DNA from: Azospirillum sp.
GTDB taxonomy: Bacteria; Pseudomonadota; Alphaproteobacteria; CACIAM-22H2
Reading direction: 5' to 3'
NCBI GenBank assembly: GCA_020249045.1
Contig: JADCGK010000140.1
Coordinates: 1-63,772 of the forward strand
Length of the DNA stretch: 63,772 nucleotides
Every line of letters begins with the position of its first letter. Position 1 is the first letter of the stretch. Below, piece by piece: positions 24,907-32,992 of this stretch. Below the pieces are notes generated by a model. That model was not told the DNA's origin, made no database searches, and was given only the letters and a program-made list of their open reading frames with translations. Position numbers and translations under genes: made by a program.

Positions 24907-26037
24907 TCAGCGCGCGGGTGGCGCGGGCGTGCGCGGCTCGGGCCCGCGCGGCTCGGACTTGCGCGCGCCGGTCTTCTTGCGCAGCGCGAAGACGTAGGAG
25001 ATCACCTCGGCCACGGCCTTGTACTGGTCGGGCTTGATCTCCTCCTCGAGGTCGACCGTGGCGTAGAGCGCGCGGGCGAGGGGCGGGTTTTCGACGACCG
25101 GCACCTCGGAGTCGCGGGCGAGGTCGCGGATGCGCAGCGCGACCAGATCGACGCCTTTGGCGACGCAGATCGGCGCGGCGGATTTGCCCTCCTCGTAGCG
25201 CAGCGCCACGGCGAAGTGCGTCGGGTTGGTGACGACGACGGTGGCCTTGGGAACCTCGGCCATCATGCGTTTGCGCGCGCGCTCCATGCGCAGCTGCTTG
25301 ATGCGTCCCTTGACCATCGGGTCGCCTTCGGCCTGCTTGTATTCCTCCTTGATCTCCTGCTTGGTCATGCGCAGGCGCTTGTTGTGCTGGAAGCGCTGCC
25401 AGAACCAGTCGAGCCCGGCGATCGCCGTCATGACCGAGATCACCGCGATCATCACCGCGATGGTCATGTCGCCCATGATGGGGCCGAGCTGCCGCGGCTC
25501 CATCTCGATGAACCGGGAAATGTCGTGCGTCTGATCGGCGATCACGTACCACGCGGCCGCGGTGACGATGGCGATCTTGATGAGACCCTTGATGAACTCG
25601 ACCAGGGCGTTGGCCGAAAACATCCGCTTGAAGCCCGTGGTGGGCGACAGGCGTGTGAAATTGGGCTTGAGCGATTCGCCCGAAACGACCAAGCCGTTCT
25701 GCAGCGCTTGCGCGGCCAGGGCCGCGATCATCAGGACGACGAGCAGCGGGCCGATGGCGAGCAACGGTTCGACCAACGCGATCGCGACGACGCGCTGCAG
25801 CCCGTTGACCGAAACTTCGATGTCGTGGGGGCGCTCGAAGAACGGCAACAGCGAAACGCTGAGACGCTGCCACGCGTATTGGGCGAACAGGGCCAGCGCC
25901 AGCGTCGCGGACACGAACATCATCCAATGGCCGATTTCGCGCGAGACGGCGATCTGGCCTTTCTCGCGCGCGTCTTCGAGCCGTTTTCCGGTTGGCTCTT
26001 CGGTTTTGGAGGATTCGTCTTCGGCTTCTTCGGCCAT
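24907..26037 (-). CDS. flhB: Flagellar export switch protein FlhB
   Basis: A 376-residue export-apparatus protein. A charged N-terminus (KTEEPTGKRLEDAREKGQ) is followed by four TM helices and a cytoplasmic domain with the autocleavage motif N271-P272-T273-H274, whose cleavage switches export from rod/hook to filament substrates. The C-terminal tail is rich in Arg, Pro and Glu. Next to fliR and fliQ, it forms the export gate with FliP. A second, gate-less copy of its C-terminal domain is encoded divergently in the same locus. Confidence 0.95.
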   Translation of the reverse strand: MAEEAEDESSKTEEPTGKRLEDAREKGQIAVSREIGHWMMFVSATLALALFAQYAWQRLSVSLLPFFERPHDIEVSVNGLQRVVAIALVEPLLAIGPLLVVLMIAALAAQALQNGLVVSGESLKPNFTRLSPTTGFKRMFSANALVEFIKGLIKIAIVTAAAWYVIADQTHDISRFIEMEPRQLGPIMGDMTIAVMIAVISVMTAIAGLDWFWQRFQHNKRLRMTKQEIKEEYKQAEGDPMVKGRIKQLRMERARKRMMAEVPKATVVVTNPTHFAVALRYEEGKSAAPICVAKGVDLVALRIRDLARDSEVPVVENPPLARALYATVDLEEEIKPDQYKAVAEVISYVFALRKKTGARKSEPRGPEPRTPAPPAR

Positions 26038-26047
26038 CGTCGCCTTC

Positions 26048-26830
26048 CTAGGGCCGCAACAGCAGCGGTTCGAGTTTGTCCAGGAAGCCGCGTTCGAAGG
26101 CGATCATCGCCGCCGACATCGCGACCGCCAGCGCGAACAGCGAAACCGCGATCTGCAGCGGTTGGGTGATGAAGAATATCTGCATCTGCGGCATCAGGCG
26201 CGCGATCAGGCCCATGGCGAGGTTGAGCACCAGGCCGAAGACCAGGAACGGCGCCGCGATCTGCACGCCGACCAAAAAGGCGTTGGAGGTCCAGCGCACG
26301 AAGGCCTCCGCCCAGTCGCCGAGCGGCACGGTTTGGGTCGGCGGAAACAGCGCGTAGGAATCCGCGAGGGCGCGCAGCAGCAAGTGGTGCAGATCGGCCG
26401 TGAAGATGACCGCAAGCGCCGTGGCGACCAGGATCGAGGACACGGCCGTGCCCTGCTGGCCGAAGCCGGGATCGAACAGCGTGGCGGCGGCCAAGCCGCC
26501 TTGCTGGGCGATGATCGTGCCGCCGATGGTCAGCGCGGACAGGCTGAAGCGCGCGGCCAGTCCGATGAAGGCGCCGACCAGCGATTCCTGCACGAAGATT
26601 CCCGCCAGCGGAAAGATCGTTTCGGGCATCGCGGGCAGCGTGCTTGCGACCGGCGGGGCGATCGTGGCGGCCACGGCCAGCGCCAGACCCAGGCGGATGC
26701 GGACGGGCACGTAGACCTCCCCGAACCCGGGCATGGCCACCAGCGCCGCGCCGATGCGCACCAAGACGACGAAGAAGGCGAAAACCTCCGCCGGCAGGGC
26801 CGCGACGAAGGGGGCGGCCAGCGCGTTCAT
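26048..26830 (-). CDS. fliR: Flagellar export gate protein FliR
   Basis: A 260-residue polytopic membrane protein with six predicted helices. It shows the FliR hallmarks AALVAMPGFGEVYVPVRIRLGLALAV and PPVASTLP, an ESLVGAFIGLAARF helix, and VGVQIAAPFLVFGLVLNLAMGLIARLMPQMQIFF. It assembles with FliP and FliQ into the export gate. It overlaps fliQ by 4 nt (ATGA) and is followed 10 bp later by flhB, the usual fliQ-fliR-flhB order. Confidence 0.94.
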   Translation of the reverse strand: MNALAAPFVAALPAEVFAFFVVLVRIGAALVAMPGFGEVYVPVRIRLGLALAVAATIAPPVASTLPAMPETIFPLAGIFVQESLVGAFIGLAARFSLSALTIGGTIIAQQGGLAAATLFDPGFGQQGTAVSSILVATALAVIFTADLHHLLLRALADSYALFPPTQTVPLGDWAEAFVRWTSNAFLVGVQIAAPFLVFGLVLNLAMGLIARLMPQMQIFFITQPLQIAVSLFALAVAMSAAMIAFERGFLDKLEPLLLRP

Positions 26831-27108
26831 CCCGCGCCACCCACGCCGATGCCCACCGCGCGCGTCATCAATTCGCGGGTGAATTCGATCAGCGTGTTGG
26901 ACATGAACGGGATGGTCAGCACGAAGACCGCGAACAGGATGACGATCTTCGGCACGAAAGTCAGCGTCTGCTCCTGAAGCTGCGTCAACGCCTGCAGCAG
27001 ACCGATCACGAGCCCCACCACCAGCGCCGTGAGCATCAGCGGCGCCGAGATCTTCAGCATGATCCAGATCGAATCGCGGCTGATCTCGAGGACGTCGGTG
27101 GCGTTCAC
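26827..27108 (-). CDS. fliQ: Flagellar export gate protein FliQ
   Basis: A 93-residue membrane protein with two hydrophobic helices separated by ALTQLQEQTLTFVPK, the conserved FliQ loop. MNATDVLEISRDSIWIMLKISAPLML is the family start. It lies in the ring of the FliPQR gate. It begins 10 bp after fliE and is translationally coupled to fliR. Confidence 0.95.
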   Translation of the reverse strand: MNATDVLEISRDSIWIMLKISAPLMLTALVVGLVIGLLQALTQLQEQTLTFVPKIVILFAVFVLTIPFMSNTLIEFTRELMTRAVGIGVGGAG

Positions 27109-27118
27109 GGCGCCGTCC

Positions 27119-27430
27119 TCAGATCTGCATCCGGATGATTTCCTGATAGGCGCTGACGACGCGGTCGCGCACCGCGACCGCCGTTTGCAGGGTCACTTCG
27201 GCGGCCGAAACCGCCTGGACGACTTGGGCGACGTCGGCTTTGCCGGCGAGGGCGCGCAAGCTCGCCTGCTCGCCCGCCTTGAGGGTGCCCATCGACGTGC
27301 GCGCGGCGTCGGCCAGCACGTCGCCGAAGGACGCCACGTCGCCGCTGCCGCGGCCTTCCAGACCGGGCGCGCGCCCGATCGCTTGGGTTCCGGCGTAGGC
27401 GGCTGCCGCCGCCGAGGGATTGATGGCCAT
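27119..27430 (-). CDS. fliE: Flagellar hook-basal body protein FliE
   Basis: A 103-residue basal-body protein joining the MS ring to the rod. It has an Ala-rich N-terminus and the conserved C-terminal helix with VVQAVSAAEVTLQTAVAVRDRVVSAYQEIIRMQI. The short linker FGDVLADAARTSMGTLKAGE is typical. It is 17 bp after flgC and 10 bp before fliQ, in the order flgB-flgC-fliE that is standard for rod genes. Confidence 0.93.
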   Translation of the reverse strand: MAINPSAAAAAYAGTQAIGRAPGLEGRGSGDVASFGDVLADAARTSMGTLKAGEQASLRALAGKADVAQVVQAVSAAEVTLQTAVAVRDRVVSAYQEIIRMQI

Positions 27431-27447
27431 TTTCGCGATCCTTTACG

Positions 27448-27858
27448 TCAGCCGCGCAGGATGTCGATCGTGCGCATGATCATCTGCTTGGACGTGTCGA
27501 TCACGTTCACGTTGGCTTCGTAGCTGCGCTGGGCTTGGCGCATATCCATCGCCTCGATCAGCGTGTTGACGTTGGGCGCGAGCACGTAGCCCTCGGCGTC
27601 CGCGGCCGGGTGGCTCGGGTCGTGGCGGCGCGGGAATGCCGATTTATCGGTGCCGATGCGCGACGGACGCACCGTTTCGGCGCCGAGCTGGCGGTCGAGG
27701 ATGTTGCGGAAGCTGACCGTTTTGCGCCGATAGGGATCGGCCCCCGGGGTTTCGCCCAGCGCGTCGGCGTTGGCGATGTTTTCGGAGATCACGCGCATGC
27801 GCGTCGATTGGGCGTTCATGCCCGAGGCGGAGATGCGGATCGCTTTTTGGAGGTCCAT
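27448..27858 (-). CDS. flgC: Flagellar proximal rod protein FlgC
   Basis: A 136-residue rod protein. It has the N-terminal rod/hook motif (AIRISASGMNAQSTRMRVISENIANADA) and the matching C-terminal helix ANVNVIDTSKQMIMRTIDILRG. The central loop, with PGADPYRRKTVSF and YVLAPNVNTLIEAMDMRQAQRSYE, fits FlgC. Exported by the flagellar type III system. 25 bp after flgB. Confidence 0.95.
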   Translation of the reverse strand: MDLQKAIRISASGMNAQSTRMRVISENIANADALGETPGADPYRRKTVSFRNILDRQLGAETVRPSRIGTDKSAFPRRHDPSHPAADAEGYVLAPNVNTLIEAMDMRQAQRSYEANVNVIDTSKQMIMRTIDILRG

Positions 27859-27883: not shown

Positions 27884-28288
27884 CTACTGGCCCGGGCGGC
27901 CGATCGCCGCGCGCAGCATGGCGATCTGTCGGCGGTAGATGTTCGTCGTCAGCTGGTAGTCCATCGCCGTGTCGGCGACCTTCATGAGTTCGCTGTCCAT
28001 CTGCACCGAGTTTCCCGACAGCGTCGTTTCCGACGGGCGCGGCGCCTCGACGCGGTGCGGCGGCGGGATGATGCGGCTTTGCTGATGGGCGCCCGAGGTG
28101 GTCGTGGGCGCCAAGCGCTGGGATTGGCCGCGCAGTTCGGCGCGGAAGTCGATGGCCTTCAGATCGCGCGGCCGGTAATCCGGCGTATCCGCGTTGGCCA
28201 CGTTCTGCGCGAGCACCTGCTGGCGCTGGCTGAGCCAGTCCATTCGGCGGGAAATCATCCCGAACAGGGGCAAACGCGTGAAATCCAT
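27884..28288 (-). CDS. flgB: Flagellar proximal rod protein FlgB
   Basis: A 134-residue rod protein. The motif RQQVLAQNVANADTPDYRPRD lies near the N-terminus and the C-terminal helix NIYRRQIAMLRAAIGRPG at the end. The start MDFTRLPLFGMISRRMDWL is family-typical; longer in-frame starts would run into the AT-rich promoter region. It heads the leftward operon flgB-flgC-fliE-fliQ-fliR-flhB, controlled from the 286-bp divergent region with two CtrA-like boxes and a 17-bp palindrome. Confidence 0.93.
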   Translation of the reverse strand: MDFTRLPLFGMISRRMDWLSQRQQVLAQNVANADTPDYRPRDLKAIDFRAELRGQSQRLAPTTTSGAHQQSRIIPPPHRVEAPRPSETTLSGNSVQMDSELMKVADTAMDYQLTTNIYRRQIAMLRAAIGRPGQ

Positions 28289-28358
28289 GATCGTCTCGAA
28301 GTTCCGTGGTCGGCCGCCCCTTCTCGGGGCGTTGGCGGTCAGTATTGGACCGCAAGCG

Positions 28359-28373
28359 TTAACAGACGGTAAA
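28359..28373. promoter_or_regulatory. CtrA-like box near flgB
   Basis: TTAA-cagacgg-TAAA matches the CtrA recognition pattern TTAA-N7-TTAA at 7 of 8 positions. It lies 71 bp upstream of the flgB start in a locally AT-rich gap, where CtrA commonly activates flagellar genes in alphaproteobacteria. Binding is inferred. Confidence 0.42.
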
Positions 28374-28379
28374 TTATCC

Positions 28380-28397
28380 CAAATTTTAGAGAATTTG
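28380..28397. promoter_or_regulatory. AT-rich inverted repeat near flgB promoter
   Basis: CAAATT-ttagag-AATTTG is an inverted repeat with 6-bp arms, just upstream of a GATAAT -10-like hexamer read towards flgB. It could be part of the flgB promoter control region, but its short arms make it a weak call. Confidence 0.25.
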
Positions 28398-28436
28398 AAG
28401 CCCTTTCGAATCGACCCAAGAATCAATATCTTGGCA

Positions 28437-28453
28437 GTCGACTCGGAGTCGAC
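28437..28453. promoter_or_regulatory. Perfect 17-bp palindrome in the flagellar divergent region
   Basis: GTCGACTC-G-GAGTCGAC is a perfect inverted repeat with 8-bp arms and a single central base, midway between the two divergent flagellar operons. It is a good candidate operator for a dimeric regulator controlling both directions. No T-run follows, so a terminator is unlikely. Confidence 0.55.
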
Positions 28454-28505
28454 ACGCGAGGCGGGTTTTACGGTAAGTGACGGGAATTCCTCGGTAAAGT
28501 GTCTT

Positions 28506-28520
28506 TTAAGAAACTTTTAG
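28506..28520. promoter_or_regulatory. CtrA-like box near the FlhB-like gene
   Basis: TTAA-gaaactt-TTAG matches TTAA-N7-TTAA at 7 of 8 positions, about 55 bp before the FlhB-like start. It mirrors the box on the flgB side and lies on the far side of the palindrome. Binding is inferred. Confidence 0.42.
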
Positions 28521-28574
28521 GGGATTTGCGGGCATCATGATCCAAACGTCCTTCGAGTCAGGATCGCCGCCGCT

Positions 28575-28892
28575 TTGGCCCGTCGCCCGCCCCGCAAGCC
28601 GTTCGACCCGGATGTCACCCGCGCGGTCGCGCTCAAATACGAGCGCGGCGGCGACGAGGCGCCGATCGTCAAAGCCAAAGGCGAAGGCCTGCTCGCCGAC
28701 AAAATCGTCGAGATCGCGCGCGCGCACGGCGTGGAGGTGCGTTCGGACCGCGATCTCGTCCGATTGCTCGACGCGGTGGACGTCGACAGTCCCATTCCGT
28801 TGGAGGCGTTCCAGGCCGTGGCCGAAATCCTGTCCTACATCTACCGCAAGCAGGACAAGCTCAAACCTACCGCCGACGCGAAGGGACGTTGA
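28575..28892 (+). CDS. FlhB C-terminal-domain homologue (EscU/YscU/HrcU-type, no NPTH)
   Basis: A 105-residue soluble protein aligning with the cytoplasmic domain of FlhB: AVALKYERGGDEAPIVKAKGEGLLADKIVEIAR matches FlhB from residue 276 on, and the FQAVAEILSYIYR helix also fits. FlhB NPTH is replaced by DPDVTR, so it cannot self-cleave, and no TM helix is present. Similar stand-alone forms (FhlX, YlqH) can substitute for the released FlhB fragment in other bacteria. The start is TTG with AGGA 12 bases upstream; no in-frame ATG or GTG was found, so the N-terminus is uncertain. It heads the rightward flagellar operon. Confidence 0.82.
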   Translation: MARRPPRKPFDPDVTRAVALKYERGGDEAPIVKAKGEGLLADKIVEIARAHGVEVRSDRDLVRLLDAVDVDSPIPLEAFQAVAEILSYIYRKQDKLKPTADAKGR

Positions 28893-28896
28893 CGTC

Positions 28897-29157
28897 ATGC
28901 GCGCCGTGGAAGTTTTCAGCCAAATCGTCGACATGACCCGCGAGATCGACGAGGCGCGCGCGCGCGTGCACCGCGGGCAAGCGGTCGATCTCGCCGGCCT
29001 CGACGTGCGCGTGCGCGATCTTTGCCTGTCGGCGACGGAGTTGCCGAAGGCCGAAGGCGTCGCTTGCGCGGGCGCGCTCGACGGTGTGGCCTTCGCCCTC
29101 GACCGGCTCGCCGCCGCGTTGCGATTGGCCGACCGGACGGCGCCGTCCGCGCCATGA
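28897..29157 (+). CDS. Small helical protein of unknown function in flagellar operon
   Basis: An 86-residue acidic, alanine-rich helical protein with no recognised domain. Two heptad-like stretches stand out (FSQIVDMTREIDEARARVHRGQ and ALDGVAFALDRLAAALRLADR), a pattern seen in flagellar type III chaperones such as FliT and FlgN, but similarity is too weak to name it. It begins 4 bp after the FlhB-like gene and overlaps fliO by ATGA, so it is co-translated with export-gate genes. Confidence 0.7.
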   Translation: MRAVEVFSQIVDMTREIDEARARVHRGQAVDLAGLDVRVRDLCLSATELPKAEGVACAGALDGVAFALDRLAAALRLADRTAPSAP

Positions 29158-29456
29158 CGACCCCCGATCCGCAACAAATCGCCCAGTTCGGCGCGGCACT
29201 CGCCTTCGTCCTGGCGCTGGTCGCGCTGATCGCCTGGCTCGCGCGCCGGTTTTTGCCGGGGGCCGTCGGCGTCGCATCGGGCAAGCGTCGGCGCTTGTCG
29301 ATCGTCGAATCGCTCGCCCTCGATCCCAAAACGCGCGCGGTGCTGCTGCGCCGGGACGAGGTCGAACATCTGATCGTGCTCGGGCCGCACGGCGCCGCCA
29401 GCATCGAAACCGTGCCGGGCGCGCCGCCCGTCCCGAACCCCGAGCCGCCGCGATGA
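29154..29456 (+). CDS. fliO: Flagellar biosynthesis protein FliO
   Basis: A 100-residue bitopic membrane protein with one hydrophobic helix (about residues 10-28, FGAALAFVLALVALIAWLA) and a cytoplasmic part carrying the FliO-like KRRRLSIVESLALDPKTRAVLLRRDEVEHLIVLG. FliO helps assemble FliP. It overlaps both neighbours by ATGA, giving the unit fliO-fliP. Confidence 0.88.
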   Translation: MTTPDPQQIAQFGAALAFVLALVALIAWLARRFLPGAVGVASGKRRRLSIVESLALDPKTRAVLLRRDEVEHLIVLGPHGAASIETVPGAPPVPNPEPPR

Positions 29457-30181
29457 TCCGCTGGATCCCGACGGCGCTTGCGCTCGTCTTGTGGCCGGGC
29501 GACGCGCTCGCCCAGTCTTTCACGCTCGACCTTGGCGACGGGGCGACGACGACCGGGCGCATCGTCCAGTTGATCCTGGTCATGACGGTGCTGACCTTGG
29601 CGCCGTCGATCCTGATGATGGTCACGAGCTTCGTGCGGATCATCGTCGTGCTGTCTCTGCTGCGCACGGCCCTGGGCACGCAGCAGGCGCCGCCGAACAT
29701 CGTGCTGACCAGCCTCGCGCTGTTCCTGACCTTCTTCGTGATGGCGCCGACGGGCGAACGGGCGTGGCGCGAAGGCATTTCGCCGCTGATCGAAAACCGC
29801 ATCACCGAAGAACAGGCGATCCAGCGTTCCGCCCAGCCGTTCCACGATTTCATGACGCGCCACACCCGCGAGACGGACGTCGCGCTGTTTTTGGACATCG
29901 CGCGCATCGAGCCACCCGCCTCGCCCGAGGCGCTGCCCTATCGCGTGCTGATCCCGGCCTTCATGATCTCGGAACTGCGGCGCGCGTTCGAAATCGGGTT
30001 CCTGCTGTTCATCCCGTTCGTCATCATCGACATGGTCGTGGCCGCGGTACTGATGTCGATGGGCATGATGATGATGCCGCCTGCGGTGGTGGCGTTGCCG
30101 TTCAAGCTGATCTTCTTCGTGCTGGTCGACGGCTGGTACCTGATCGCGGGCTCGCTCGTGCAATCCTTCGGCGCGGGGTAG
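29453..30181 (+). CDS. fliP: Flagellar export gate protein FliP
   Basis: A 242-residue membrane protein with a cleavable signal (MIRWIPTALALVLWPGDALAQ), typical of FliP. Signatures include TVLTLAPSILMMVTSFVRIIVVLSLLR, the LGTQQAPPN loop, RIEPPASPEALPYRVLIPAFMISELRRAFEIGFLLFIPF and GMMMMPP. FliP forms the core of the export channel with FliQ and FliR, encoded divergently here. ATGA overlap with fliO. Confidence 0.95.
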   Translation: MIRWIPTALALVLWPGDALAQSFTLDLGDGATTTGRIVQLILVMTVLTLAPSILMMVTSFVRIIVVLSLLRTALGTQQAPPNIVLTSLALFLTFFVMAPTGERAWREGISPLIENRITEEQAIQRSAQPFHDFMTRHTRETDVALFLDIARIEPPASPEALPYRVLIPAFMISELRRAFEIGFLLFIPFVIIDMVVAAVLMSMGMMMMPPAVVALPFKLIFFVLVDGWYLIAGSLVQSFGAG

Positions 30182-32848: not shown

Positions 32849-32992
32849 ACCTCCGCGTTTCGTCGTGCGTCGAGAACACGATGTCGCTTGAATCGGCCGC
32901 GACTCGGGGCGCATGATTCGCAAGTCGATTCGCCGGGGGGCGACACGGCGCGAAGGCGCGTCGGGCACCGATCCGGTCGATGGGGGACAAAC

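Follow-up and report, generated by a model that had tools for sequence, protein, structure and literature searches.

The closest described counterparts of the flgB upstream region examined here are two divergent flagellar promoter regions controlled by CtrA. In Caulobacter, flgB and fliO lie 144 bp apart in divergent orientation and share one CtrA site, with fliO activated and flgB repressed (PMC6180460). In Rhodobacter (Cereibacter) sphaeroides, flgB2p and fliI2p were found by experiment to be two independent CtrA-activated promoters, and both arms were lost in a ctrA deletion; in CtrA promoters of this species transcription starts 23-24 nt beyond the CtrA site, and an A at -11 is invariant (PMC6180460).

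The locus analysed here lies in the window, the whole stretch of DNA examined (63,772 nt), which comes from a 3.87 Mb draft genome of the Alphaproteobacteria. It resembles R. sphaeroides flgB2p-fliI2p in that flgB is divergent from another early flagellar operon and each arm has a predicted CtrA site of its own, and the position of the -10-like element after the flgB-side box fits the mapped start distance and the A at -11 (PMC6180460). The partner operon differs, being fliI there and fhlB-fliO-fliP here, as does the layout, with starts 47 bp apart and half-sites separated by 6 bp in R. sphaeroides and boxes 132 nt apart with N7 spacing here (PMC6180460). As in Caulobacter flgBp-fliOp, flgB faces the fliO-fliP side with CtrA sites, predicted in our case, in the gap; unlike Caulobacter, there are two conserved boxes and no single shared site, fhlB and orfX precede fliO (PMC6180460), and the window has no sigma-54 element towards flgB. 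CtrA probably switches on these two back-to-back flagellar gene sets together, an ordinary type of control in this class.

Two CtrA-like boxes between divergent flagellar operons

The gap at 28289-28574 (286 bp) separates a leftward operon headed by flgB from a rightward operon headed by fhlB. The genes of the two arms are:

24907-27858, minus strand: flgC, fliE, fliQ, fliR and flhB, the rest of the leftward operon, each over the cut-off of an NCBIfam model
27884-28288, minus strand: flgB, first leftward gene, 134 aa (TIGR01396, 77 bits, cut-off 59)
28575-28892, plus strand: fhlB, short FlhB C-terminal-domain protein, 105 aa, TTG start (Pfam Bac_export_2, 74 bits)
28897-29157, plus strand: orfX, 86 aa, kept in the genus, between fhlB and fliO
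29154-29456, plus strand: fliO (Pfam FliO, 27.1 bits, cut-off 22; TIGR03500, 48 bits, below the cut-off of 55)
29453-30181, plus strand: fliP (TIGR01103, 296 bits, cut-off 217)

The fhlB product scores 85 bits with TIGR00789, below its cut-off of 117, and orfX gave no family match in Pfam or NCBIfam. The rightward genes are spaced by 4 bp or overlap by 4. With this content, the genes for FliP, FliQ, FliR and FlhB all fall within the two operons that start at the gap. In some relatives (L024, L025, L028 and L061) the rightward operon includes what reads by eye as a CsrA-like gene, placed between flgB and fhlB.

A motif scan against TTAA-N7-TTAA, with eight scored positions and a threshold of at least 7/8, located two CtrA-like boxes in the gap, their coordinates and letters exactly as given in the initial annotation:

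28359-28373, minus strand: CtrA-like box 1, TTAA-CAGACGG-TAAA, which reads TTTAC-CGTCTG-TTAA towards flgB; 7/8 match
28506-28520, plus strand: CtrA-like box 2, TTAA-GAAACTT-TTAG, facing fhlB; 7/8 match

A third 7/8 match, TAAA-N7-TTAA at 28495-28509, which the initial annotation does not mention, shares the first half-site of box 2 and is present at the equivalent place in just four of the 11 genus members (L001-L004, where L001 is the window). These three are the only matches of at least 7/8 in the window, and all fall inside the 286-bp gap; the whole-window expectation is 0.83, and 6 of 100 shuffles reach three. Dinucleotide shuffling of the gap alone, repeated 2000 times, gave a mean of 0.11 matches, with at least one in 10%, at least two in 0.5% and at least three in none. 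A single box is weak evidence because about a tenth of the shuffles produce one, whereas two boxes are unlikely by chance. That the boxes are nevertheless chance matches in AT-rich DNA gains something from this ease of obtaining one match and from the source genome as a whole, where TTAA-N7-TTAA or TTWAC-N6-TTAA showed no genome-wide enrichment over a backward control. Among 14 genome-wide sites, only those of flgB and one methyl-accepting chemotaxis protein (L138) were recognised by eye. The comparison with relatives described below contradicts a chance origin.

The gap had also been described as the longest and most AT-rich of the window. Its composition bears this out, with 51.4% GC against 68.1% for the window and with the 12 lowest-GC 286-bp stretches listed all starting at 28231-28286. 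Its rank as the longest is not borne out: apparent gaps of 320-420 bp occur elsewhere in the mechanical gene list, although that list includes shadow ORFs. No promoter turned up in 28200-28700 with a simple sigma-70 scan, and an Rfam search of the window found no RNA.

Promoter geometry and the flgB leader

Each box is followed by a candidate -10 element, of unequal quality on the two sides:

28341-28346, minus strand: AATACT, 12 nt past box 1, a -10-like element for the presumed flgB promoter
28532-28537, plus strand: GCATCA, weak -10-like match of the presumed fhlB promoter, placed by analogy with box 1

Transcription of flgB would be expected to start near 28335, a position derived via PMC6180460, and that of fhlB near 28544, by analogy with box 1. 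The two boxes had been said to flank the promoters. More accurately, each promoter has one box at its presumed -35 position.

Of the thinned regions, 30 carry a strict flgB-side form of the box, the logo of which is TTTAC-N6-TTAA with a preference for T at the second base ahead of the downstream half-site. A GATACT-like hexamer (at least 4/6) starts 11-14 nt past the flgB box in 20 of the 30, against at most four for other 4-nt windows, and the offset is 11-12 nt in most of these regions. The GATACT consensus was picked after seeing the logo; the offset and shuffle controls are the tests. The start distance and the A at -11 described for R. sphaeroides (PMC6180460) place the -10 where the GATACT-like element was found. 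The fhlB-side logo, built from 25 regions, contains a mild -10 signal.

The distance from the box to the flgB ATG, measured in 52 loci with duplicates included, was 23-25 nt in 14 loci and at least 49 nt in the other 38 (70 nt in the window). No locus had a distance below 23 nt or of 26-48 nt, and there is thus either no space for a leader or ample space. A start of transcription 23-25 nt past the box would account for such a distribution. The 14 short-distance loci are those of seven genus members (L005-L011), their public duplicates and L121. In L005-L011 and L121 the flgB ATG lies at the expected start of transcription, and the predicted flgB message may be leaderless.

Conservation of the boxes and sigma-54 elements in relatives

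The search for FlhB-like loci took in 61 genomes, the window's own among them (30 loci; 41 genomes with a match), and a public genome set (80 loci kept of 169 confirmed). From these 110 loci, 16 without a divergent flgB were set aside (15 with no flgB found in the available flanking DNA and one with flgB on the same strand), leaving 94 divergent loci, of which 81 were distinct and 64 remained after thinning by shared 10-mers.

Comparison with relatives, named in the initial annotation as a refuting check, found both boxes in 11/11 genus members and in many other families of the class. When the 11 genus members are aligned, TTTTAAGAAA-N-TTTTAG and GTAAATT do not vary, against a mean column identity of 55% and a drifting spacer. 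A further element is invariant in the genus:

28382-28393, no strand: AATTTTAGAGAA, invariant in 11/11 genus members, adjoining box 1 upstream

This stretch is perhaps an UP-like element, and in the logo and the genus alignment it was not seen as such in other families. Across the class, at least one box occurs in 45 of the 64 thinned gaps (shuffle mean 8.8, maximum 16), at least two in 35 (mean 1.8, maximum 5) and an exact 8/8 box in 18 (mean 0.6, maximum 3). This conservation settles the boxes as real, and together with the class-wide enrichment it makes their origin as chance matches extremely improbable.

Half-site spacings of N3-N12 were compared in the same 64 gaps, and N7 gives the most matches. 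The counts for N6 and N8 are also raised (36/64 and 25/64), perhaps from shifted AT runs that are counted twice. These results bear on whether the boxes are bound by some other regulator, or are plain -35 elements of constitutive AT-rich promoters. The AT-richness of the gap, the reach of the conserved stretch past the boxes into AATTTTAGAGAA and the presence of boxes in some genomes without CtrA over the cut-off would all suit such a reading. Against it, N7 is favoured over other spacings, the control motifs AATT, TATA, ATAT, TAAT and ATTA stay below TTAA, though AATT still reaches 20/64 and ATTA 18/64, and both the site form and the start distance fit mapped CtrA promoters. We regard this alternative as distinctly improbable.

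Co-occurrence of CtrA and the box was also tried as a test in 50 genomes, a few of which do not belong to the 64, and was not clean. No CtrA over the cut-off was found in nine of them, three of these having fragmentary matches, and four of the nine carry at least two boxes in the gap; conversely, 20 of the 41 genomes with CtrA have no box there. The latter group led us to inspect the box-less gaps, which were first read by eye; many showed a -24/-12 sigma-54 element towards flgB, and a test for such elements was set up afterwards. This scored 13 positions of a sigma-54 consensus with a GG-N10-GC core.

A sigma-54 (RpoN) element scoring at least 10/13 holds the flgB side in 17 of the 64 thinned gaps (for example L110, L117, L122, L097, L073, L085 and L111). 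At a threshold of at least 12/13 there are 16 such gaps, against 0.02 in dinucleotide shuffles. None of the 64 has an element of at least 11 towards fhlB. The window itself has no match with the GG-N10-GC core towards flgB, and its best score towards fhlB is 6/13. No gap combines the strict flgB-type CtrA box with a sigma-54 element: 30 gaps have the box only, 17 the sigma-54 element only, none both and 17 neither. When any 7/8 box is counted, three gaps have both, 42 a box only, 14 the sigma-54 element only and five neither. In one of the three with both, L017, a sigma-54 element points towards flgB, and an 8/8 CtrA box followed by TATACT was seen by eye towards fhlB.

On a tree of joined FlgB, FlgC and FhlB sequences the CtrA/sigma-54 label changes three times, and a paired test had only two pairs on starred branches, too few to reach significance; the exclusion reflects few independent changes, with only two or three switches, and its Fisher p values are not to be taken as a tally of evolutionary events. 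In Caulobacter, FliX works with the later flagellar class. Its loss was ruled out as a cause of the difference, FliX being present in 58/64 genomes that include both architectures.

On balance we lean towards reading the gap as a switchable regulatory joint, at which control of the flgB (rod) arm has passed between CtrA and sigma-54 two or three times with gene order unchanged, L017 representing a mixed state with Caulobacter-like logic, and at which part of the genus would have a leaderless flgB with its CtrA promoter directly before the start codon. In a limited search of the open-licence literature we found no description of a CtrA/sigma-54 exchange at the flgB/FlhB-like gap, or of a leaderless flgB. 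Control of the flgB side by CtrA or by sigma-54, depending on the relative, offers a testable case of flagellar expression order being rewired while gene order stays unchanged.

Proposed control of the two arms and other sites

Activation of both arms is the reading favoured by the two boxes and by the spacing on the flgB side. We consider it likely, from the sequence comparisons above, that two divergent flagellar promoters of the housekeeping-sigma type lie in the gap, each with a CtrA site over its -35, and that CtrA activates both arms. Phosphorylated CtrA would bind each box and recruit RNA polymerase to the -10 element 11-12 nt further on, giving a leftward output of flgB-flgC-fliE-fliQ-fliR-flhB and a rightward output of fhlB-orfX-fliO-fliP. 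FliP, FliQ, FliR and FlhB, which jointly form the export gate, would then be made together with the proximal rod under one cell-cycle signal. In this scheme the boxes and their conservation, the spacing on the flgB side, the operons and the presence of a CtrA gene are observed, whereas CtrA binding, its phosphorylation, the timing and the activation of both arms are what we infer. The proposal in the initial annotation that both arms are CtrA-controlled gains from the separate conserved box on each arm and from the spacing of the flgB -10; the -10 of the fhlB arm is weak, and the opposite effects of CtrA on the two arms in Caulobacter (PMC6180460) keep the proposal inferential.

Several findings count against joint activation: the lack of genome-wide enrichment, the boxes in 4/9 genomes without CtrA over the cut-off, the 20/41 CtrA genomes that are box-less and the weak fhlB-side -10. 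In addition, experiments on a gap with this gene order come only from Caulobacter, where CtrA represses flgB (PMC6180460). CtrA could accordingly act in opposite directions in the window as well, activating fhlB-fliO-fliP and repressing flgB, which would be driven later by another activator. Such opposite effects from one shared site in Caulobacter (PMC6180460), the presence of FliX in the source genome and the arrangement in L017 speak for this possibility. The window has instead two separate boxes 132 nt apart, its flgB box stands at an activating distance from a conserved -10, and a sigma-54 element towards flgB is lacking; we think control in opposite directions unlikely. Activation of both arms, the reading we prefer, would extend direct CtrA control of early flagellar genes, in a two-box layout, to a Rhodospirillales-type lineage known mainly from draft genomes, and would make a single signal responsible for the proximal rod and most of the export gate.

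The source genome encodes CtrA (418 bits in a profile search, cut-off 350), as well as GcrA, a RAMA-domain methylase of the CcrM type and FliX. CtrA reportedly controls motility in Magnetospirillum. The ctrA gene has a 7/8 box of its own upstream (L145:886), and a TTAAC-N6-TTCA box lies upstream of fliF in 7/7 genus members with a fliF match. A GATACT-like element follows the fliF box in the six sequences examined; the seven members are close relatives and represent few events.

GANTC is rarer in the window than expected (132 against 312), a depletion typical of CcrM genomes. The gap contains a cluster:

28408-28450, no strand: group of four GANTC sites spanning 43 bp and lying between the promoters

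Relative to the predicted flgB start these four sites are 73-115 nt upstream; another, at 28555, lies just past the predicted fhlB start. A possible role for GcrA/CcrM was considered: the 11 genus gaps have a GANTC density 5.3 times that of the window, but P was 0.02-0.61 against shuffles of each gap, and GANTC is known to favour intergenic DNA. A second cluster, at 32890-32931, has four GANTC in 42 bp and is the sole other of that density in the window. Midway between the boxes, 28421-28433 is an exact match to an IHF consensus, the one such match in the window (0.2 expected); by eye, an IHF-type site is present in L002-L004 and absent from the other seven genus members. Finally, one contig of the source genome, C186, carries both ctrA (22642) and fliF (10921), separated by about 11 kb, and similar linkage was seen in three other genomes (G006, G023 and G026).
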